Shown here: piece after piece, positions 2,206-32,781 of the stretch | Layout of the letters: each line of letters starts with the position of its first letter | How positions within the stretch are numbered: position 1 is the stretch's first letter | The notes under the pieces: model-generated | What the model was told of the DNA's origin: nothing | The model's input: the letters and a program-made list of their open reading frames with translations, nothing else | Database searches by the model: none | Position numbers and translations under genes: made by a program | Source: Oscillospiraceae bacterium | GTDB taxonomy: Bacteria > Bacillota > Clostridia > Oscillospirales > Oscillospiraceae | Direction of reading: 5' to 3' | Assembly (NCBI GenBank): GCA_015067835.1 | Contig: SVLS01000003.1 | Coordinates: forward strand, 50,883-114,882 | DNA length: 64,000 nt

Positions 2206-2480
2206 TCCAAATAAAACACCCTCCGTCCCCATTGGGACAGAGGGTGAAAATTCACGGTACCACCTCTGGTTCAGCTCTGCCTCACGGCACAGCCCTCACG
2301 CCGTCTGACAACGGCTTGCGCTGTATCGGGCGTACCCGTCGCATCCTACTTTGTTCAGAAGCGCCACTCCGGGAGGTATTTCATCAGAATTTCCAGGCTG
2401 CCTTGCACCATCCGGCAGTTCTCTGACAGGAAAGCTTCCGATTACTTCATCCCATCGCTGTGTTGTGCCTATTTTAGCGA
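2206..2480 (-). promoter_or_regulatory. T-box leader of tyrS (Tyr specifier UAC)
   Basis: Minus strand contains AGAGGTGGTACCGTGAATTTTCACCCTCTGTCCCAATGGGGACGGAGGGTG (T-box antiterminator sequence plus terminator) and GATGAAATACCTCCCGGAGT (candidate specifier loop with TAC). Confidence 0.92.
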
Positions 2481-3329: not shown

Positions 3330-4979
3330 CTACGGATGCAGCATTTCCTCCGCACTCTTCAAGGTTGTTTCTGTAATGTGGGTGCCGCCGATAATCCGGG
3401 CAAGCTCCCGCTTGCGCCCTTCCATATCCAAGGGCGTTACGGATGTAAAGGTTCGGCCATTGCGCTCTTCCTTGGAAATCAAGAGGTGATTCTGGGCCAA
3501 AGCAGCCAGCTGCGGCAGGTGCGTCACGCACAAGACCTGCTTGTGGGCAGCCACGCTGCGAAGCTTTTCTGCAACCTTCTGGGCTGCACGGCCGGAAACA
3601 CCGGTGTCCACCTCATCAAAGATAAGCGTAGCAACCTTGTCACGCTCAGCCAGTACATTTTTCATTGCCAGCATTATGCGTGCCAATTCACCGCCGGAAG
3701 CAACCTTATTCAGCGGCTTCAAATCCTCACCGGCATTGGCTGACATATAGAACGCAACACTATCCGCCCCATTTCCGCTTAACGGAATTTGTGCAAAGCG
3801 GCAGACAAACTGCACACGAGGCATATCCAGCTGGCTTAACTCGGTCAAAATCCGTTCTGACATCGCCTGTGCCGCTTCGGTACGATTTTCTCGAAGCTTC
3901 AAAGCCGCATTCCAAGCCTTCTCCTCTGCCTGCACCAGCTTTGCTTTCAAGCGTTCCAGGCGGTCGTCAGCAAATTCAATCTCGTCCAGCTCCTGCTTCG
4001 CTTTTTCAAGGAAGTCCAGAATATCCACGCAAGTCGCACCATACTTCCTGCGCAGCTTATGTATCACATCCAATCGGCTTTCAATCTGCTCCAGCTCCTC
4101 TGCGCTGTAACGCAGGTCATCTCTGGCATCGCGTACCATTTCAGCCGCATCCTGAACCTGATACATCAGGTCAGCCACTTTATCATGGAGCTCTGAAATT
4201 GTTTCGCTGTATTTAGCAATTCTCGCCAAAGCATATTCTGCCGATGACAACATCCCAGACGCGCCATCCGTATCATCATCACCGTAAAGGCACATCACAG
4301 CCTCATTCATACCGTCAGAAATCTTTTCTGCACTTTGCAGCAGCTTCCGACGCTCTTCCAGGGCTTCATCCTCCCCAGCTTCCAGCTCGGCCTTTTCAAT
4401 TTCCGCAATCTGAAAGCGCAGGGTTTCCATCCGCCGTATTTTTTCACCTTCGTCCATGGTCAGCGAATCAATTTCACGGCGCAGCTGCAGAACCTCTGCA
4501 TATTTTTCGCTGTATTCATTGCGCAAAAGCTCATTGTCTGCAAACGCGTCCAGAAAGGATAGATGATTGTCCTCATCGAACAAGGACGCAGAATCATGCT
4601 GCCCGTGAATGTTTATCAGCTGATTGCCCAGCTTGTGCAAAATAGAAACAGAAACCAAGCTGCCGTTTACCCGGCAGATATTTCGTCCGTCCAGAAAAAT
4701 CTCCCGGTGAATGACGGTCTCACTGTCATAGTCCACCGCGTTTTCTTCAAACCAGGGAAAGCGGGGTACATCGGTAAACACAGCACGCACCGACGCTTTT
4801 TCCGCACCGGTACGAATCATATCCCGATAGGCTCTTGCGCCCAGAATTGCCGAAATTGCATCGATAACAATGGATTTACCGGCACCAGTCTCACCGGTCA
4901 AAACCTGAAAGCCGCAGTCAAAGGAAATGTCGGCGCATTCTATGACCGCAATATTCTCAATATGCAGAAGACTGAGCAT
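3330..4979 (-). CDS. recN: DNA repair protein RecN
   Basis: MLSLLHIENIAVIECADISFDCGFQVLTGETGAGKSIVIDAI...; ABC/SMC-like ends with LIFDEVDTGVSGRAAQKVAEKL. Confidence 0.96.
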   Translation of the reverse strand: MLSLLHIENIAVIECADISFDCGFQVLTGETGAGKSIVIDAISAILGARAYRDMIRTGAEKASVRAVFTDVPRFPWFEENAVDYDSETVIHREIFLDGRNICRVNGSLVSVSILHKLGNQLINIHGQHDSASLFDEDNHLSFLDAFADNELLRNEYSEKYAEVLQLRREIDSLTMDEGEKIRRMETLRFQIAEIEKAELEAGEDEALEERRKLLQSAEKISDGMNEAVMCLYGDDDTDGASGMLSSAEYALARIAKYSETISELHDKVADLMYQVQDAAEMVRDARDDLRYSAEELEQIESRLDVIHKLRRKYGATCVDILDFLEKAKQELDEIEFADDRLERLKAKLVQAEEKAWNAALKLRENRTEAAQAMSERILTELSQLDMPRVQFVCRFAQIPLSGNGADSVAFYMSANAGEDLKPLNKVASGGELARIMLAMKNVLAERDKVATLIFDEVDTGVSGRAAQKVAEKLRSVAAHKQVLCVTHLPQLAALAQNHLLISKEERNGRTFTSVTPLDMEGRKRELARIIGGTHITETTLKSAEEMLHP

Positions 4980-4998: not shown

Positions 4999-5451
4999 TT
5001 AATCCAGCAGGTTCTTAATTTCTCCGCAAAAAGCTGCTGCGGCATTGTTGTCCCGCATAACGACGAAAACCGTATCGTCACCGGCCAATGTTCCCAAAAC
5101 AACACTAAGATTCATTGTATCAATGGCAGACGCTGCCGCATTTGCAAGACCCGGCAGGGTGTGAATGACCAGGATATTTTGGGCATAGTCGAATTTTGTA
5201 ATACACTCCCGGAAAATGGTGTTCAGTCTTCCGGAGAAGGTATTGCTGACCTCGTTGGTAGAAACAGCATAGCGATAAGTTCCAAAGCTGGTCAGCTCCT
5301 TAATAATGCGAAGCTCCTTAATATCTCTGGAAATGGTGGCTTGCGTACTGCGATAACCGGCTTTCTGAAGCTCCGCCAGCAGCTGCTCCTGGGTTTCTAC
5401 ATTTTTATTGGAGATGATCTCCATAATTTTAGCTTGTCTTTTAGATTTCAT
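4999..5451 (-). CDS. argR: Arginine repressor
   Basis: MKSKRQAKIMEIISNKNVETQEQLLAELQKAGYRSTQATISRDIKELRIIKE...GTLAGDDTVFVV. Confidence 0.96.
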   Translation of the reverse strand: MKSKRQAKIMEIISNKNVETQEQLLAELQKAGYRSTQATISRDIKELRIIKELTSFGTYRYAVSTNEVSNTFSGRLNTIFRECITKFDYAQNILVIHTLPGLANAAASAIDTMNLSVVLGTLAGDDTVFVVMRDNNAAAAFCGEIKNLLD

Positions 5452-5461
5452 TGTTATTCCC

Positions 5462-6328
5462 TCATCTGCCATCTCTAAACTTCTGATTCACCACATCATA
5501 GAAGCTATGCTTTTTCAGGCGAATCAGACTGGTTTCCAAATTTGACTTCTTAATGGTGGTTACATCGCCCATATTCAGGCGAACGGATTTTCCGCCATCC
5601 ACCGACAAATAAGCATTGCGGCGGGCATTTCTTGTAAGCTTGACGGAAATCACGCGGCGGTCAGAGGCCACCATGCAGCGGCTCCCCACGTCATGGGCAC
5701 AAATCGGTGTAATTAAAATGCTGTGTGCCTCCGGCTCCACAATGGGACCGCCGGCTGAAAGGCTGTATGCTGTTGAGCCGGTAGGTGTTGCAACAATCAC
5801 ACCGTCGCCACCGCACTCCATTGCCTGCACACCATCGCATTCCACTGCCAGATGGACAATACGGGCAACTGCACCCTTGGTAATCACCACATCGTTGAGA
5901 CAAATATCGTGGAACATAATATCCCTGTCCCGAAAGACCGTTACATCCAGCATCATACGCTTGTCCACCGTATAGTCACCGGTTGCAAGACACTTCAGCT
6001 GCTGCAGCTCTGTGCTTTCCAGCTCTGCCATAAAGCCCATTGTGCCAATATTCACACCCAGAATAGGGATGCCGGCCCGTGTTGCGGTCTTGGACATGTG
6101 AAGAATTGTTCCGTCACCGCCAAAGCAGATAATAAAGTCCGCTCCCGGCAACTCCTTATCCAATCTTGAAAAGCGCAAATCCTTGGGCAAATCGTAGGTC
6201 CTGTCCACCTCAAAGGGCAGGCACAGCCGCACTTCCATTCCAGCCTCTTCCAGAATCTGAGCCGCTTGGCGCACGGTTTGAAAATCTTTATCCCGGTATG
6301 GATTCGGCGTCATAATTACTTTCTTCAC
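5462..6328 (-). CDS. nadK: NAD kinase
   Basis: FGGDGTILHMSKTATRAGIPILGVNIGTMGFMAELE; PTGSTAYSLSAGGPIV. Confidence 0.96.
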   Translation of the reverse strand: MKKVIMTPNPYRDKDFQTVRQAAQILEEAGMEVRLCLPFEVDRTYDLPKDLRFSRLDKELPGADFIICFGGDGTILHMSKTATRAGIPILGVNIGTMGFMAELESTELQQLKCLATGDYTVDKRMMLDVTVFRDRDIMFHDICLNDVVITKGAVARIVHLAVECDGVQAMECGGDGVIVATPTGSTAYSLSAGGPIVEPEAHSILITPICAHDVGSRCMVASDRRVISVKLTRNARRNAYLSVDGGKSVRLNMGDVTTIKKSNLETSLIRLKKHSFYDVVNQKFRDGR

Positions 6329-6332
6329 ATCG

Positions 6333-7136
6333 TCACCCCTTTAGTGTTTGATGAGCCTGCGCCACAACGGACGCAGTATCCGGGATAATTCCCGGTACAT
6401 TTTCCAAAGTCAAATGTCCTAAAAATTCAATATTCCCCTCCGGACCTTTTACCGGTGAGAAGGTCAGCCCCAGAATGGTAAAGCCCAGCGCTGTTACCGT
6501 TTCCACGAAGCTATCCAGGACCTCCTGATGAATTTCCGGTTCCCGAACAACTCCTTTTTTACCCACCTTTTCCTTGCCGGCCTCAAATTGAGGCTTAATG
6601 AGGCACAGCACCTGTCCTGAAGGCTTCAAAAGTGCCTTGATGGCAGGCAAAACAATTTTTAAGGAGATGAAGCTGACATCAATAACCGAAAGGTCCAGCG
6701 GTTCTCCTAAATCCTCCGGTGTTACATAGCGAATGTTGGTACGCTCCATCACCACAACCCGCTCATCGGAACGAATCTTCCAATCCAGCTGACCGTAGCC
6801 AACATCAATGGCAAAGACCTTCTTTGCCCCCTGCTGAAGCAGACAATCGGTAAATCCACCGGTGGATGCGCCGGAATCACTGCATACGAAGCCCTCCGGG
6901 TTCACGCCAAAATCCCGCAGCGCCTTTTCCAGCTTCAGTCCGCCACGGCTGACATAAGGGCAGGCTGCACCCCGTACCTCTATCTGAACCGTTTCCTCAT
7001 AGGAAACACCCGGTTTATCCGCCTTTTGACCGTTGACATAGACCTGCCCGGCCATAATAATCGCCTGCGCCTTCGCACGGGTCTGCGCAAACATTTGCTC
7101 CACGAGTAAAACATCCAGGCGCTTTTTAATTTTCAC
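6333..7136 (-). CDS. tlyA: TlyA family rRNA methyltransferase / hemolysin-like
   Basis: S4 domain KKRLDVLLVEQMFAQTRAKAQAIIMAGQVYVNG and FtsJ-like SDSGASTGGFTDCLLQQGAKKVFAIDVGYGQLDWK; GTG start at 7136 overlapping the dxs stop. Confidence 0.95.
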   Translation of the reverse strand: MKIKKRLDVLLVEQMFAQTRAKAQAIIMAGQVYVNGQKADKPGVSYEETVQIEVRGAACPYVSRGGLKLEKALRDFGVNPEGFVCSDSGASTGGFTDCLLQQGAKKVFAIDVGYGQLDWKIRSDERVVVMERTNIRYVTPEDLGEPLDLSVIDVSFISLKIVLPAIKALLKPSGQVLCLIKPQFEAGKEKVGKKGVVREPEIHQEVLDSFVETVTALGFTILGLTFSPVKGPEGNIEFLGHLTLENVPGIIPDTASVVAQAHQTLKG

Positions 7137-9018
7137 TATCAAGCACCTCCGTGATTTTTCTTGCAAGTGCATCGGCATCCAGTCCATAATGCCGGTACAG
7201 CTCCCTGACACTTCCGTGAGTTACAAAATCCGGACCCAAATCCATAGAATGAACCGTCAGATTTCGGTTGTGTTTCGCCAGCTCACAACAAAATGCAGCA
7301 TAAATGCCTGAGCCTGTGCAAGCTTCCTCTGCCAGAATAAAATGCTTACAATCCCCGGCAAGTTCCAGAATCCGCTCCACAGGAAACGCAGAAAGGCAGA
7401 GCAGCTGCAGCACTGTTACCTCAACGCCAAACTGGCTGAGATGGTCTGCGCAGCGAACCGCTTCATTGGTCAGCGTGCCATAGGTTACCAGGACGGCATC
7501 CTTACCTTTCCGGTGGCAGTAAACTGCTCCCTGTGCTGCAAGATTCTGATTCCCGGTAAAATTGGACTCCTGTAAAATGCCATTTCCCCCTCTGGGATAG
7601 CGAATGGCTATCGGCCCATCATAGCTTTCTACTGCCCAGCGAAGCATTGCAGACAGCTCGCTGCAGGTAGCCGGGCACAATACTGTCATTCCGGGAATCT
7701 GACGCAAAAAGCCTACATCGAAAACACCGTGGTGGGTTTCTCCATCCTCACCCACAAGTCCGGCACGGTCGACAGCCAGAACAACATGAAGCTTCAGCAT
7801 TGCAATATCCTGCAAAAGCTGGTCGTAGGAACGCTGTAGAAAGGTAGAATACAAGGCCAAAACGGGCGTCATCCCCTGTTTGGCCAAGCCGCCTGCCATA
7901 GAAGCAGCGTGTTCTTCTGCAATACCGACATCAAACAACCGGTCAGGAAATTGCTCTTTCATTTTCAGCAGACCCGTACCACCGGGCATTGCCGCAGTAA
8001 TGGCGCAAAGGCGGGGATTCGTCTTTGCCAAATCCACCATTGTATCGCCAAAGGCATCGGAAAAAGTGTAAGCTTTGCCCTGAGGCAGCTCGCCGGTATT
8101 GGGGTCAAAGCTTCCGACGCCATGGAATTGAGAAGGTTTTTGCTCCGCCGGCAGATAGCCGTTGCCCTTTTGGGTATAGATATGGAGCAGGGTCGGAGTT
8201 TTCATATCCCTTGCAACCTTCAGCAAACGAACCAGCTCATTTACATCGTGACCGTCCGCCGGTCCCAGGTAAGTAAGACCCATATTTTCAAACATACTGG
8301 TAGGCAGAATAGAGCGTTTTACCCAAGCCTTAAAACGGCTGGTCATACCATAAAACGCTTTACCTCCCGGCACCTTACTTAATGCATCGCGATAACGGCG
8401 CTTCATCCCAAGATAGCGTTCCTTGGTACGCAGGTTGGACAGGTGCTTGGATATACCGCCTACATTGCGGTCAATGGACATCTCATTGTCATTCAAAATG
8501 ATGAGCAAAGGCTCCTTGCTGGCCGCCGCATCATTCATCCCTTCATAAGCCATACCGCCAGTTGCCGCACCGTCACCCAACAATGCAATGACATGGTAAT
8601 TCTCTTTCAAAAGTGTTCTTGCCCGTGCCATTCCAAGGGCAACCGAAACGGAGCTCGATGCGTGACCTGCCACAAAGGCATCTGCATCACTTTCAGATGG
8701 TTTCGGAAATCCGGCGATTCCGCCAAATTGCCGTAAATGCTGAAAATCCGCCTGGCGACCGGTCAGCAGCTTATGCACGTAAGACTGATGACCTACATCG
8801 AACACCAGACGGTCCTTTTGGGTATCAAAAACCGTCTCCAAAGCGACCGTCAGCTCCACAACGCCCAAATTCGACGCCAAATGACCGCCTGTTTTGGAAA
8901 CAGATTCAATTAAAAATTCACGAATTTCACAACACAGCTGGACTCTTTGCTCCTCGTTCAGAGAAAGAAGGTCCTTATGGCCGTTGATATTTTCCAATAT
9001 GCTCACAACGCGACACAA
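7126..9018 (-). CDS. dxs: 1-deoxy-D-xylulose-5-phosphate synthase
   Basis: GGHLASNLGVVELTVALETVFDTQKDRLVFDVGHQSYVHKLLTGR; GDGAATGGMAYEGMNDA; DIAMLKLHVVLAVDRAGLVGEDGETHHGVFD. Confidence 0.97.
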   Translation of the reverse strand: MCRVVSILENINGHKDLLSLNEEQRVQLCCEIREFLIESVSKTGGHLASNLGVVELTVALETVFDTQKDRLVFDVGHQSYVHKLLTGRQADFQHLRQFGGIAGFPKPSESDADAFVAGHASSSVSVALGMARARTLLKENYHVIALLGDGAATGGMAYEGMNDAAASKEPLLIILNDNEMSIDRNVGGISKHLSNLRTKERYLGMKRRYRDALSKVPGGKAFYGMTSRFKAWVKRSILPTSMFENMGLTYLGPADGHDVNELVRLLKVARDMKTPTLLHIYTQKGNGYLPAEQKPSQFHGVGSFDPNTGELPQGKAYTFSDAFGDTMVDLAKTNPRLCAITAAMPGGTGLLKMKEQFPDRLFDVGIAEEHAASMAGGLAKQGMTPVLALYSTFLQRSYDQLLQDIAMLKLHVVLAVDRAGLVGEDGETHHGVFDVGFLRQIPGMTVLCPATCSELSAMLRWAVESYDGPIAIRYPRGGNGILQESNFTGNQNLAAQGAVYCHRKGKDAVLVTYGTLTNEAVRCADHLSQFGVEVTVLQLLCLSAFPVERILELAGDCKHFILAEEACTGSGIYAAFCCELAKHNRNLTVHSMDLGPDFVTHGSVRELYRHYGLDADALARKITEVLDSEN

Positions 9019-9020
9019 CC

Positions 9021-9617
9021 TTAATTTTTGTTTTTCCTTTTTGTGCCAAAAATAGAACCGATATGACTAATTGCGTAAATCAATCTGCCTGCAAAATGCA
9101 CGATTTTGGTAGAGGAATTCACTGCAAAGCTCTTGCCGATTGCCTTACCGCCGACAGTCAAGCCAGAAACCACCGCCGACATTACAAGGCTTATCAATCT
9201 GGGCCAGGAAAACTCAAAATTCTGAAGAATCTGCGCCGCAATTGTAGCTGATGCCGCACCGGACACAACGCCGCAAATATCGCCCACCACATCGTTACAA
9301 ATCGAGCTGACCCGCTCTGCCCGGCGAAGCAGGCGCAATGCCTCTCTTGCACCCGGCACCTTGCGCGCCGCCATAGAATGAAAAGGGCTGTCATCCGCGG
9401 ATGTTACTGCAACACCAACAACATCGAAAATGATGCCAACGAAAACGATAATCAGCAAAATAGCAAAAGAGGTAATCATACCGCTTTTGCTCATCAGTTC
9501 ATCAGATACCAGCGTAATCAGCGACGTGGTCATCACCGTCACAAGAAATACGGTAATCACCCACCGGATATTCCGGTTGCGCTCCTTTTTTGATTGACTT
9601 GGGTCTGCTTTTGCCAC
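9021..9617 (-). CDS. oapA: OapA-like (OLE-RNA-associated protein A) multi-pass membrane protein, DUF21-like
   Basis: GTG start with AGGAG RBS; GIIFDVVGVAVTSADDSPFHSMAARKVPGAREALRLLRRAERVSSICNDVVGDICGVVSGAASA; lies between dxs and a 0.6 kb ORF-free structured region, the arrangement described for OLE loci. Confidence 0.83.
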   Translation of the reverse strand: MAKADPSQSKKERNRNIRWVITVFLVTVMTTSLITLVSDELMSKSGMITSFAILLIIVFVGIIFDVVGVAVTSADDSPFHSMAARKVPGAREALRLLRRAERVSSICNDVVGDICGVVSGAASATIAAQILQNFEFSWPRLISLVMSAVVSGLTVGGKAIGKSFAVNSSTKIVHFAGRLIYAISHIGSIFGTKRKNKN

Positions 9618-9644
9618 AGGAATTTCTCCTTAATTTTTTATAAA

Positions 9645-10263
9645 AGACGGCGACAAACAGGATAAATCTTACGGCTTAGGTCGGGTTGGATTTCCCCAGA
9701 CAGAACCTGCCGTTGCCGCGCAGGCCGTTTCCGTTTCATCTGTCCGCTTATGCGTTGCCAATCATAAATACCCGATTGCCACTTAGTCCGTACTGTAATC
9801 CCCTGTTTGCCCAGTTACGACAGCCTAGGTGATTTCCACAGCGAAATAAACCATAATCTTAGCCTCTTTTGCAAGTAAGATTTCCAGAGGCAATATCGGT
9901 AGTCACTATGGCCATAGCGACCAACCGCGTGAACCTCTTTCCCAACATACTCACTCAAGGCAGGCTACACTGCACGTAGCAACACGATTCTGCGCACCAC
10001 GCTACAGGTTCATACCAGGCCCGTACGCGAAGGAGGCTTCCCATAAAAGGAGTTCCCATTCTTCGTCGCACAAAACCAGGTCTCCACGGAAACCGGGTCG
10101 TATGCCCCATGCCATTGGAGCGCGCCCGGGATCCTTAACCCCCAGCATCCACCCTAAACTGGGCGTAAAAAGCAGACACCAGGGACTTCATCGATGTGCC
10201 CTTCAAAGGATTTTTAGGCCCTTCCTTGAAAATGGACATTCCGACTAGGATACTGCACCGTCG
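9645..10263 (-). ncRNA. ole: Candidate OLE RNA (ornate, large, extremophilic noncoding RNA)
   Basis: About 620 nt with no reading frame in the ORF track, ending just before oapA; preceded by a good promoter; internal self-complementary stems (e.g. GTCGCTATGG/CCATAGTGAC; AATCTTA/TAAGATT); operon context oapA-dxs-tlyA-argR-recN. Ends are approximate. Confidence 0.8.
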
Positions 10264-10269
10264 GGTTAG

Positions 10270-10298
10270 ATTTTAGCATACTTTTTGTGAATATACAA
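10270..10298 (-). promoter_or_regulatory. SigA-type promoter of the candidate OLE RNA
   Basis: TTGTAT (10298-10293), 17-nt spacer, extended -10 TGC-TAAAAT (10275-10270). Confidence 0.75.
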
Positions 10299-10339
10299 GT
10301 ATTTTTTCATAAAATACGGTTTTATTTATAAAACATTCA

Positions 10340-19416: not shown

Positions 19417-22400
19417 TGCGGTTTACCTCCTTTTCTACATCTGCCCAAAATTCCTGCGCAGAAATTGTCTTATAATCCCGGCGCTCCGGCACATCTTTCT
19501 GATGGCAAATGCTTCCATAGGGGCAATATCTGCAGGCATTGTGACTGCTGCCGCGGGTATAGGGATTGGCTTGCACGCTTCCTGCGGCAATTTCGTCAAT
19601 CATATTGCGCAGCAATGCAAAGATGTATTGCTCAAGTAGCTCAAACTGACCGCTGTCTGCCAAATCGCCGCTCAGCTCCCCATCCGGTGACAGCTTACAG
19701 CACACACGGTACATATTTTCGCCGGGGTTCATCGCTTCAATGACTTGTGCATTATTTAACAGCAATCCGCTTCGCTTCCAATTTGCTCTGCGCTTTAAAT
19801 CCGCCTTTTCCTTAGCAAGACAGCTATCTGCAGAAATAACTGGCGATCCGGCGGTAAAATACTGAACACCCGCCGCAACAGGGCTATTACCCACCACTTT
19901 CTCTCCATTTCTGCGCAATGCGAAAAGATACAGAAGCATTTGCAGACCAACGCCGTTATAAATATCACAATAGTCCAGAGACTTTTTTCCCGTCTTGTAG
20001 TCAACAACGCGGAAATAATGCTTTCCGCCCTGCTCCCAAATATCCATACGGTCCACTTTACCACGCAGGAAGGTGGGAATTGCCGCACCGTCAATGGATA
20101 TGGCCGGCATATCGCCGTCTTCGTTGCTGAAATTAAGCTCAAAGGCTTCCGGACGGAACTTGGCATCCTTTAATTCACACCACAGCTCCTCCAGAATCAA
20201 CACAAGCTCATTCCAGTTCCGTTCGAACAGATAGCTAACCCGCTGAGAATCTACCTGACTGAAGCGCTGACCGGCATAAGCCTCGGACTCTTTCTTTGCA
20301 ATCTCCAATGTCTCTTCCAACGACACGGTTTCAAAGCCGCCGCGAGCCATTACTTCTTTGGCAGTATGCTCCAAAACATCGTGGACATAAGTACCGAATT
20401 CTGCCGCATCGATGGTGATTTCCTTCCGTTCCTTCGCGCGCAGACCATATTTCAGGAAATAGGACAGTCGGCACTCGGCAAATTGATTAATTTGAGAAGC
20501 AGAAAGATTCAACTGACTTCCATACAGCTTTTTGACCGCATCTTCAGACACCTTTCCCACAGAATACTCCATTCTGTTTTTGGTGTCATAGTACCACTTT
20601 TCAACACCAAGCGCCTTCGCAGTTTTGACATCCTGCCAACGGGCCAAATAAGCACCGCTTTCCCGCATATCCACGCCTGCCGCACCAAGCGATTCCTTTA
20701 TGGTCTGCTCACCACCGGCAACCTTCGCAATACGGCGATAGAGGTAAGACCCCTCTCCACCGGGGTAGGAAATATATACGGATTCCGTCGCACCGCAGAA
20801 AAGGCCGTAAATTTCAGCAAATTCTGCCTGCAAGCCTTCCATTGCGCCGCCGGTCAGAGGTACGCCCATTTGACGCAGTGCCACTCGCTCCTGGTCGGTC
20901 AACAGCCCTTTGGAGCCGCCATAGCCGGGCAATGCACCCTCCGATGCGCCCAATACCAGCAAATGCTTTGCCTCCTGACAGCGCATTGCGCTGACAGAGC
21001 CAAATGTAACCGCATCCAAAGCCGGTGGAATTGTCCCCACCTGATACTGCGCCAGAAGAATGGTCAAAAGGCGGATGAACATCTCCGGCTCCCAAACTGT
21101 CTGACCCAGCATATCATACATCTGCTCCAGCGCAGACAAAAGAATTTCCCAAATCTGATTGAGAATTTGAACCTCTCTCAGCTGTCCGGCTTCCTCCATT
21201 TGAGCAGACAGCTTCTCCAGCTTCTCTACAAAGGAAATCTCTTCCAGGAAATCATAAAGTGCCTGCACCTGCTGGCTGAGATTTGTTGCCCTTTTGAAAT
21301 TCTGCTGCAGCTTTGCCAAGGGAGAAATCGCCATCTGCCGCGCCTCATTCAGCGTTTCCAGTAATTTCGTTGCCTGGTCGTTCCAATCCTTCCCCAAGCC
21401 CTCCGGATGCCCATCCCAGCTCTTCAGGAAGCCATTGTAGCGAATGCCCCAGGTAATGACATAATTTTCCACCTGGTCGCAGGTATCCGTATCCAACGGA
21501 GAGAGAAGGGATTTTAGGTAGCGCAGTACCGCAGACTGCTCGAAGCCGCCCAAGGCCGCATCCAGCGCGGACAGCACCGTAGAAATCACTGTTTTCTGCA
21601 GAATGTCCTCTCTTCCCGATTGATACAGCGGGATTCCGTACCGGCGGAAATTCAATTCCATCACGCTCTGGTACTGGTTCATATCTGCACACACAATGCT
21701 GATATCCCGGTATCTGCAGCCACTTTGCACCAGCTCCATCACACGGTCTGCGGCAGACAGCACCTCCACATGGATAGAATCTGCGCAAACTGCACGAACA
21801 CGGTTATGCAGCTCTTCCGACTCCGGCAATTTTCCCTGAAACAAAGAATCGTACAGCAACATCATTGCATCTGTTCGGCTTTCCACCGCCTCAATTTCCA
21901 CAGGAATTCCGGCATTTTTAGCGCAACGAAGCAGCTGCTTTGCTGTATCACCTGCCTTTTCAAAGGCCAGGTTATCCGTTTCGATGCTGTCGCAGTTCAT
22001 GCTGATCGTAACCGAGGGTGACTCTTTGATTAAATGCTCCAGAATTGCCAAATGCTGGCGGGTAAAATCCGGGAAGCCGTCGATGTAAAAGGTATGCTCC
22101 CGGGCGAAGGAATCCTCCTCCAGCTGCTCCAAACACCAGGTCATCTGGTCCCGCGGGTCACGGCGACCTTGGGCGCAAATGGCATCATAGGCATCCAGAA
22201 TCAAAGCCAGCTCCTCCAGCTTAACCGACAAGGTGCCATCGGTCATTTTGGACGCTGCCATCAAATCCTGGGATGTGATGCAGCAGCGTTTGAACTCGTC
22301 AACTGCATCCACCAGCTCCTTCAGAAACTCCGGCTTTGTTTCAACCGATGCATAGGCCTTGATTTTGCTATGTAATTGATGGGTCGCAGCTGCCATGGCA

Positions 22401-22756: not shown

Positions 22757-23368
22757 TTATCCTGCGTAAAACAGGTTCTCAATCCACCCCAGACAGTCCA
22801 TCACAAAAAACCGGGCGCGGTATGGGGGTTCGTCTGTTAAAGCTCCTGTCAGGGAGTCTCCAAAGCCGGCACCGGCTGCAGTATCTTCAAATGCCTCCGT
22901 CGTTGCACCGAAGCACAGCCCGGGAAAAACAACACACCACCAGTTTTTCCCTTCCCCACTGCCGATGGTAATGCGCAGGGATTCATAAATACCGGACGGG
23001 AGAGAGAAAGTGTCATACTTCCGAGCCGGAAAGGCTTCCTTGGCAAAACTCACAACTGCCTTGCAGCCTTGCCCCGCCTTTTCCAAAACCTCATTGGCAA
23101 TCCGCTCCAGCTCCGGGAGCTGCGCCTGGATATATTCCCTGGCAGATTCCATATCGGGAAGGCTGTTTACCGCACTTTGAAGCTTATTCAGCACTGCGTC
23201 TCTTACCTGAAGCTTGATGCTTTGAGCCTCTTCAGAATCAGAATCCGCAACCACATGCAAGCGTATGACACTGTTTTGCAGCGCTCTTATATCCGCCGTT
23301 ACACTTCCAAGCCAGAATGCCGCCACAATCAACAGCAATGTACAAACGAATTTCAAAAACTTCTTCAT
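22757..23368 (-). CDS. spoIIR: Stage II sporulation protein R
   Basis: VIRLHVVADSDSEEAQSIKLQVRDAVLNKL...YDTFSLPSGIYESLRITIGSGEGKNWWCVVFPGLCF. Confidence 0.95.
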   Translation of the reverse strand: MKKFLKFVCTLLLIVAAFWLGSVTADIRALQNSVIRLHVVADSDSEEAQSIKLQVRDAVLNKLQSAVNSLPDMESAREYIQAQLPELERIANEVLEKAGQGCKAVVSFAKEAFPARKYDTFSLPSGIYESLRITIGSGEGKNWWCVVFPGLCFGATTEAFEDTAAGAGFGDSLTGALTDEPPYRARFFVMDCLGWIENLFYAG

Positions 23369-23416
23369 AAAAAACACCATCCATACCGGTTATACTACCA
23401 GTATGGACGGTTTCAG

Positions 23417-24283
23417 TCAAAATGATACAGGTTTGGCAATAAATACTTGCGGATAGTTTTCTTTCAGCATCTGACAAATCACAGCAGCGTACTCAAATTC
23501 CGGAGTAATACAGAATACTGCTGAGCCGGAGCCGGTCATTTGCTGACCGATAGAGCCGTATGCATTGAAAATGGATTTGATATAATTCAGTTCCAGATGC
23601 TCAGCCGTCACCACCGGGTCAAATACATTGTACAAATTCTGGGCAATTTCCGGTAAGTTACCGGTGACAATTGCTTTTTCCATCAAAAGATGCTCCGGAC
23701 GCTTGCCGATGGGAGTTTCGTCAAGTTTTGCATATAATACCGGTGTTGATACGGAGAAATCCGGCTTGCACACCACAAAAATACAATCCGGCATATCCGG
23801 CAATTTCCGCAGTTTTTCACCCCTGCCTTCCACGAGAGCAGTCCCCCCTATGACGCAGAAAGGCACATCGCTTCCCACCAAGCTGCCCAATTCCGCCAAT
23901 GCTGCAACAGAAAGCGGTGAACCGTAATGACGGTTCAAAGCACGGAGCACAGCTGCCGCATCCGCACTGCCGCCACCCATACCGGCCTCGCTGGGAATTC
24001 GCTTTGTAATGCGAATTTCGATGCCGTTGGGGTCGATTTTAACAGTCTCAAAAAAGACCTTTGCCGCCTTCCATGCAAGATTGCGCTCATCACAGGGAAT
24101 ATCATCCCGGTCGCAATGCAGACACCAGGGCTTACCTGTCTCCACATCGATTTCCACATCATCCCGCACAGAAATCGTCTGCATCACGCTTTTCAGGTCG
24201 TGATAGCCGTCCGGGCGCTTGCCCAGAACATCCATTGTCAAATTCAGTTTTGCGTATGCACCTTCATACAGCGTCGTCATCAT
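23417..24283 (-). CDS. ispE: 4-diphosphocytidyl-2-C-methyl-D-erythritol kinase
   Basis: AYAKLNLTMDVLGKRPDGYHDLKSVMQTIS; KRIPSEAGMGGGSADAAAVLRALN. Confidence 0.96.
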   Translation of the reverse strand: MMTTLYEGAYAKLNLTMDVLGKRPDGYHDLKSVMQTISVRDDVEIDVETGKPWCLHCDRDDIPCDERNLAWKAAKVFFETVKIDPNGIEIRITKRIPSEAGMGGGSADAAAVLRALNRHYGSPLSVAALAELGSLVGSDVPFCVIGGTALVEGRGEKLRKLPDMPDCIFVVCKPDFSVSTPVLYAKLDETPIGKRPEHLLMEKAIVTGNLPEIAQNLYNVFDPVVTAEHLELNYIKSIFNAYGSIGQQMTGSGSAVFCITPEFEYAAVICQMLKENYPQVFIAKPVSF

Positions 24284-32477: not shown

Positions 32478-32566
32478 GGAGAGATGTCCGAGCGGTTTAA
32501 GGAGCTAGTCTTGAAAACTAGTGATACCGAAAGGTACCGTGGGTTCGAATCCCACTCTCTCCGCCA
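32478..32566 (+). tRNA. tRNA-Ser (anticodon TGA)
   Basis: GGAGAGATGTCCGAGCGGTTTAAGGAGCTAGTCTTGAAAACTAG...GGGTTCGAATCCCACTCTCTCCGCCA; long variable arm, encoded CCA. Confidence 0.98.
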
Positions 32567-32568
32567 GA

Positions 32569-32600
32569 AAAACCGACAAGTTTCGACTTGTCGGTTTTTC
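32569..32600 (+). terminator. tRNA-Ser terminator
   Basis: AAAACCGACAAG-TTTCGA-CTTGTCGGTTTTT. Confidence 0.9.
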
Positions 32601-32603
32601 AAC

Positions 32604-32781
32604 TAAATCCACCCCTTCGGGTGGGTGAAATATTGCTTCGCAATGTGAAATACGCCTACGGCGTGTGAAATTCGCCTCGACGGCGAGTGGGTGGATTTAA
32701 TTTCACATTTTGCCGAAAGGCAAAATATTTCATCCAAAACTTGTTTTGGATTTCACCGTGAGCGAAAGCGAACGATTTCAC
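32604..32781. repeat. Multi-hairpin palindromic element with GTGAAAT/ATTTCAC linkers
   Basis: Outer stem TAAATCCACCC (32604-32614)/GGGTGGATTTA (32689-32699); seven small hairpins separated by GTGAAAT x3 then ATTTCAC/ATTTCAT x4. Confidence 0.85.

Follow-up and report, generated by a model that had tools for sequence, protein, structure and literature searches.

The window, a 64,000-nt stretch of DNA from an Oscillospiraceae genome, almost certainly contains an OLE RNA–OapA locus. The first-pass annotation had read this region as an OLE RNP locus, and the proposal is now borne out by a match to the OLE covariance model together with the co-occurrence and fold of OapA, in an organism known here from sequence alone. 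The locus comprises the following elements.

10270..10298, minus strand: OLE promoter (position conserved ahead of OLE in relatives)
9631..10277, minus strand: OLE RNA gene (cmscan RF01071, extent as in the Rfam model; single copy in the genome; covariation in 40 sequences)
9021..9617, minus strand: oapA, encoding a 198-aa membrane protein with a GTG start (remote CNNM match; OLE co-occurrence; match to the CNNM/CorB/CorC fold)

The covariance-model check suggested in the annotation gave a match to Rfam OLE (RF01071) of 442.3 bits (threshold 50, E 2.1e-127), untruncated and spanning all 616 model positions (1-616) on the minus strand. RF01071 was the sole Rfam family at curated threshold in the 10 kb around the locus, and OLE is single copy genome-wide. 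An Rfam scan of the whole window returned the same OLE match plus one T-box, one tRNA and one Gut-1 RNA. The interval had also been described as non-coding, and indeed no ATG/GTG/TTG ORF of at least 80 aa lies within 9618-10339; stop-to-stop stretches there reach at most 61 aa on the strand of the RNA and 132 aa antisense. The outcomes named in advance as telling against OLE, namely no OLE match combined with no OapA likeness, or a hidden coding gene or other RNA, were thus not what we found. The window's OLE is full-length, with P7-P9 and the OapB end at P13 present, as seen from the whole-model alignment and from helices 5, 6, 8-11 and 17-19 in the covariation analysis. It departs from the model in one stem, whose tip (10058-10032) has 27 nt in place of the 5 expected.

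Secondary structure was analysed in 40 OLE sequences from the family sample and a second, partly overlapping genome collection, using the Rfam structure as it stands, without fitting it to the 40-sequence alignment. In the window's OLE, 155 Rfam consensus pairs have a letter at both positions; 142 of them are canonical and 13 non-canonical, and sliding the 3' partners by 1-3 bases lowers the canonical pairs to 60-70 of 155. Across the 40 sequences, standard pairs occupy 89.5% of cells (40-47% when slid), double-sided changes occur at 100 pairs, and the covariation score is 0.409 versus 0.170 in shuffles. This comparison shows the predicted OLE secondary structure to be under selection in the family. 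Profile rows L009 and L028 stood on their listed strand in the alignment behind these pair counts; minus-strand nhmmer matches inside OLE were attributed to the wrong orientation of these two rows and were set aside. That the locus is a degenerate, non-functional OLE remnant is extremely unlikely: the 13 non-canonical pairs and the origin of the sequence in an uncultured MAG could be taken that way, but the whole-model score lies within the range of complete relatives, the contact motifs and oapA are intact, and the promoter is conserved.

Cryo-EM has assigned the dimer contacts and the kink turn to OLE motif elements (PMC12286853, PMC12265935). In solved OLE structures the GGCC of L9.3 forms the kissing loop of the dimer, and the J6/7 strand partners the kink turn in the cryo-EM model (both PMC12286853). 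The OapB-binding end at P13 is often short of nucleotides in variant 1 OLE RNAs (PMC9723947, PMC11332333). The L4 motif CCTAAAAATCC and the L5.1 and L6.1 loop motifs were found in 40/40 OLE sequences, and the other contact elements in the window are as follows.

10186..10204, minus strand: J4a/5 kink-turn strand, by analogy the OapC site (GGGCA[CT]A.C..TGAA in 40/40; role PMC9723947, PMC12286853)
10081..10087, minus strand: J6/7 strand GTGGAGA, by analogy the kink-turn partner ([TC]GGAG[AG]C in 40/40; role PMC12286853)
9902..9921, minus strand: P9.3/L9.3 hairpin with palindromic GGCC loop (GGCC in 39/40; role PMC12286853)
9697..9746, minus strand: P13 region, the OapB-binding end, intact (helices 18-19 of the covariation analysis; role PMC9723947, PMC11332333)

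Two stems had been singled out in the annotation. One, GTCGCTATGG/CCATAGTGAC at 9921-9902, is the genuine OLE L9.3 helix ending in the GGCC palindrome; the other, AATCTTA/TAAGATT, is unconserved. As a candidate helix the latter pairs in 127/279 cells, only 1/40 sequences has 6 of its 7 pairs, and the Rfam alignment assigns the AATCTTA bases to another helix.

By analogy with OLE of Halalkalibacterium halodurans and of clostridia, the RNA would form a dimer through L5.1/L6.1, the A-rich loop of L4 and the GGCC kissing loop of L9.3. On the same analogy, OapA would hold it at the membrane, and OapC would bind at the kink turn and OapB at P12.2/P13. If it works as in H. halodurans, OLE may act in adaptation to membrane, Mg2+ and energy stress.

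The OLE promoter has a -35-like TTGTAT (10298-10293), a 17-base spacer and an extended -10 TGCTAAAAT with TAAAAT (10275-10270). A generic promoter scan placed it under threshold and missed it, and it was called instead by comparison across relatives. In relatives, 67% of the best promoter-like sites lie 8-13 bases ahead of the conserved block, as opposed to 9% in shuffles. Moreover, TTGTATATTCA (10298-10288, minus strand), which contains the TTGTAT -35, occurs with at most one mismatch in 46/73 non-redundant upstream regions, where 0.4 are expected. The comparison shows a putative promoter that is conserved and OLE's own, in support of the earlier claim. With the -10 at 10275-10270, transcription probably begins close to 10263, inside the Rfam extent.

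In the window and at the same place in relatives, the -35 of this promoter overlaps with a conserved element, CTTGTATATTCA (46/73 versus 0.4 in shuffles), and in some sister genera the promoter element is a palindrome, TTGAATATTCA(A). An operator function is possible for CTTGTATATTCA, and ArgR came into view as a candidate regulator because argR belongs to the downstream gene series.

We also weighed whether the interval serves chiefly as an extended 5' leader through which oapA-dxs is regulated, and not as a separate structural RNA. It does immediately precede oapA in the same orientation, with 13 bases between the Rfam end and the oapA start. However, in H. halodurans OLE is a protein-binding RNA that builds up as a ~630-nt species (PMC9723947), and covariation supports structure from one end of the interval to the other, making a mere leader very unlikely. 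Co-transcription with oapA is compatible with a structural RNA role, and both can be true.

The protein next to this structural RNA was found at 9021-9617 on the minus strand as the annotation had it, GTG-started, 198 aa long and with the quoted motifs. Against Pfam CNNM it scored 22.5 bits (E 1e-4), below the gathering cut-off of 28.4, and a search of NCBIfam with it gave no useful match. An AlphaFold2 model built with 43 homologues had a mean pLDDT of 83.7, and the top five solved folds were all CNNM/CorB/CorC (probability 0.98-1.00, TM-score 0.36-0.47, best E 3e-3), a modest match that agrees with the published link between OapA and MpfA, a CNNM exporter (PMC11332333). D109 and D113 are invariant in the 43 homologues and are spaced like D100/D104, the residues altered in OapA PM1 (PMC9723947), an equivalence drawn from spacing without an alignment to the H. 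halodurans protein. In relation to the MpfA/CorC/CorB (CNNM) exporters, the protein resembles their transmembrane domain remotely in sequence and in fold, but its 198 aa leave no room for the CBS and CorC domains, and it is tied to OLE.

This tie was seen in a family sample of 121 genomes from 106 genera. OLE was present in 34/121, and strong OapA matches occurred in exactly those 34 (34/34 OLE genomes versus 0/87 others); two OapA matches outside OLE genomes were weak and fell on CNNM frames of ~430-440 aa. In the second, partly overlapping collection, OLE lay upstream in 79/80 oapA loci, the exception beginning at a contig edge. Comparison thus shows close relatives of the predicted OapA to be confined to OLE-bearing genomes. 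The libraries used contain no OapA model, so the name was assigned from context, co-occurrence and fold, and these support the proposal that the protein is OapA, a short CNNM/DUF21-related membrane protein. A short CNNM transporter of Mg2+ that has nothing to do with OLE and lies nearby by chance would share the CNNM-like fold and the remote sequence match, but would not be expected to have its close relatives in 34/34 OLE genomes and 0/87 others, nor adjoining OLE in other loci; the probability of this is negligible.

Two arrangements differed from the usual one. In genome G029, contig C28, OLE (19811-20477) and oapA (23022-23546) are ~2.5 kb apart, unlike the usual tandem. Two oapA loci with OLE upstream (L091, L095) lie on different contigs of one MAG (RGIG5575), by duplication or in a mixed bin.

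Downstream of oapA in the window lie the following genes.

7126..9018, minus strand: dxs (TIGR00204, 686.8 bits)
6333..7211, minus strand: tlyA-like gene (by reading; order kept in 64/64 loci)
5462..6328, minus strand: nadK-like gene (by reading; order kept in 64/64 loci)
4999..5472, minus strand: argR (by reading; order kept in 64/64 loci)
3330..4979, minus strand: recN (by reading; order kept in 64/64 loci)

The order oapA-dxs-tlyA-nadK-argR-recN was kept in 64/64 loci with enough flank. The annotation had given dxs-tlyA-argR-recN after oapA, which holds, apart from the omission of nadK between tlyA and argR. It had also placed ispA among the OLE neighbours; here ispA is away from OLE, together with xseB and xseA on contig C29. 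NUDIX and dinB lie upstream of the window's OLE, and the classical xseA-xseB-ispA is absent there. In three loci from other genera (L105, L108, L109) an xseA-like and ispA-like pair, by reading, stands directly upstream of OLE. The xseA-xseB-ispA neighbourhood is not a defining feature of OLE itself.

MpfA-type exporters are known to be anticorrelated with OLE, and OapA/OLE has been proposed to cover part of the exporter role. In the window's genome, a 90.55% complete assembly, no MpfA-type Mg2+ exporter was found; its sole CNNM match is weak (E 3.9e-5) and presumably OapA itself. This agrees with that published proposal. Across the family sample, strong CNNM (MpfA-like) matches occurred in 7/34 OLE genomes versus 79/87 others (Fisher p 1e-13), with MpfA-like called by the CNNM domain only and the test ignoring kinship, so that related genomes are not independent. 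The sample is an in-family replicate of the OLE-MpfA anticorrelation. One OLE, L024 from genome G031, is without the L9.3 GGCC, and G031 also has an MpfA-like protein.

The annotation had recommended looking for OapB and OapC elsewhere in the genome. OapC (YbxF) is present at rpoC-ybxF-rpsL (G000:C14), with 45.3 bits to PF01248 (L7Ae-like) and YbxF as its best solved match (E 1.5e-16). OapB was not found in the window's genome, where a search of the KOW family gave only L24, NusG and one weak non-candidate. However, infA is missing too, and contig C6 ends just after rplR, so the map-oapB-infA stretch falls in an assembly gap. In a congener (G049) the operon runs secY-adk-map-oapB-infA (names by reading, infA by search), and in a relative the protein encoded between map and infA matches solved OapB (E 3.4e-7). 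Since the contig stops short of the operon position that holds oapB in the congener, the absence of OapB is uninformative, and the window's organism likely encodes it. OapB did not differ with OLE status in the family sample (26/34 with OLE versus 58/87 without, p 0.38).

Sister genera (L011-L029) carry an extra J5/6 hairpin beside the OapC kink turn; the equivalent in the window is TTAAGG at 10138-10133. OapC was found in 10/10 short-type genomes versus 6/19 hairpin-type genomes on the tree (6/21 with G008 and G105). The association of the hairpin with OapC loss was demoted as a finding, since the hairpin changed once on the tree and the link is therefore not independent of ancestry. It is unlikely that the family has two OLE architectures, a canonical one that keeps OapC and a sister-clade one whose J5/6 hairpin made OapC dispensable, with several later losses.

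The window's OLE clearly adds a member to a known class and is not a new kind, as OLE of gut lineages was already included in a 2024 survey with 2,822 matches in Bacillota (PMC11332333). It shares with OLE RF01071 of H. halodurans and Clostridium acetobutylicum the whole-model match, the contact motifs and its own promoter, and with classical OLE the oapA gene immediately downstream and the dxs-to-recN series. In contrast to classical OLE, the host is a gut-type Oscillospiraceae, NUDIX and dinB lie upstream, and xseA-xseB-ispA is on another contig. OLE variants 1 (TANB77) and 2 (RF39) of gut Bacillota likewise have uncultured gut hosts (PMC11332333). However, their P7-P9 are shortened or P7 and P8 are missing, whereas the window's RNA is full-length; variant 1 is often without the OapB site, and the variant clades are largely without OapB and OapC (PMC11332333), whereas the window's genome has OapC. 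'OLE RNA' and 'Oscillospiraceae' were not mentioned together in the literature searched, and the occurrence may still be published. For the OLE class overall this is an expected addition and no surprise. OLE is among the largest structured bacterial RNAs without known biochemical activity, and a full-length OLE with OapC in gut Oscillospiraceae adds mesophilic hosts to compare with the extremophile model. The patchy spread of OLE within one family (34/121) also offers closely related pairs with and without it.

The source is one Oscillospiraceae genome of 1.73 Mb in 34 contigs. It has Spo0A, which is nearly universal in the family sample (108/121 genomes). The named relatives are MAGs labelled Oscillospiraceae or Candidatus Faecousia, most of them recovered from animal guts. 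These neighbours and the Gut-1 RNA inside the same window support an uncultured gut-type Oscillospiraceae relative as host, in line with the gut-associated Clostridia proposed in the annotation. The annotation had contrasted such a mesophilic gut host with the classical extremophiles; the host is supported, but OLE in gut Bacillota was already published (PMC11332333). In the whole-window scan the Gut-1 RNA (32600-32676, plus strand) adjoins the tRNA (32478-32563), and the T-box leader (2237-2467, minus strand) lies upstream of an ORF (972-2255) that is tyrS-like by reading.
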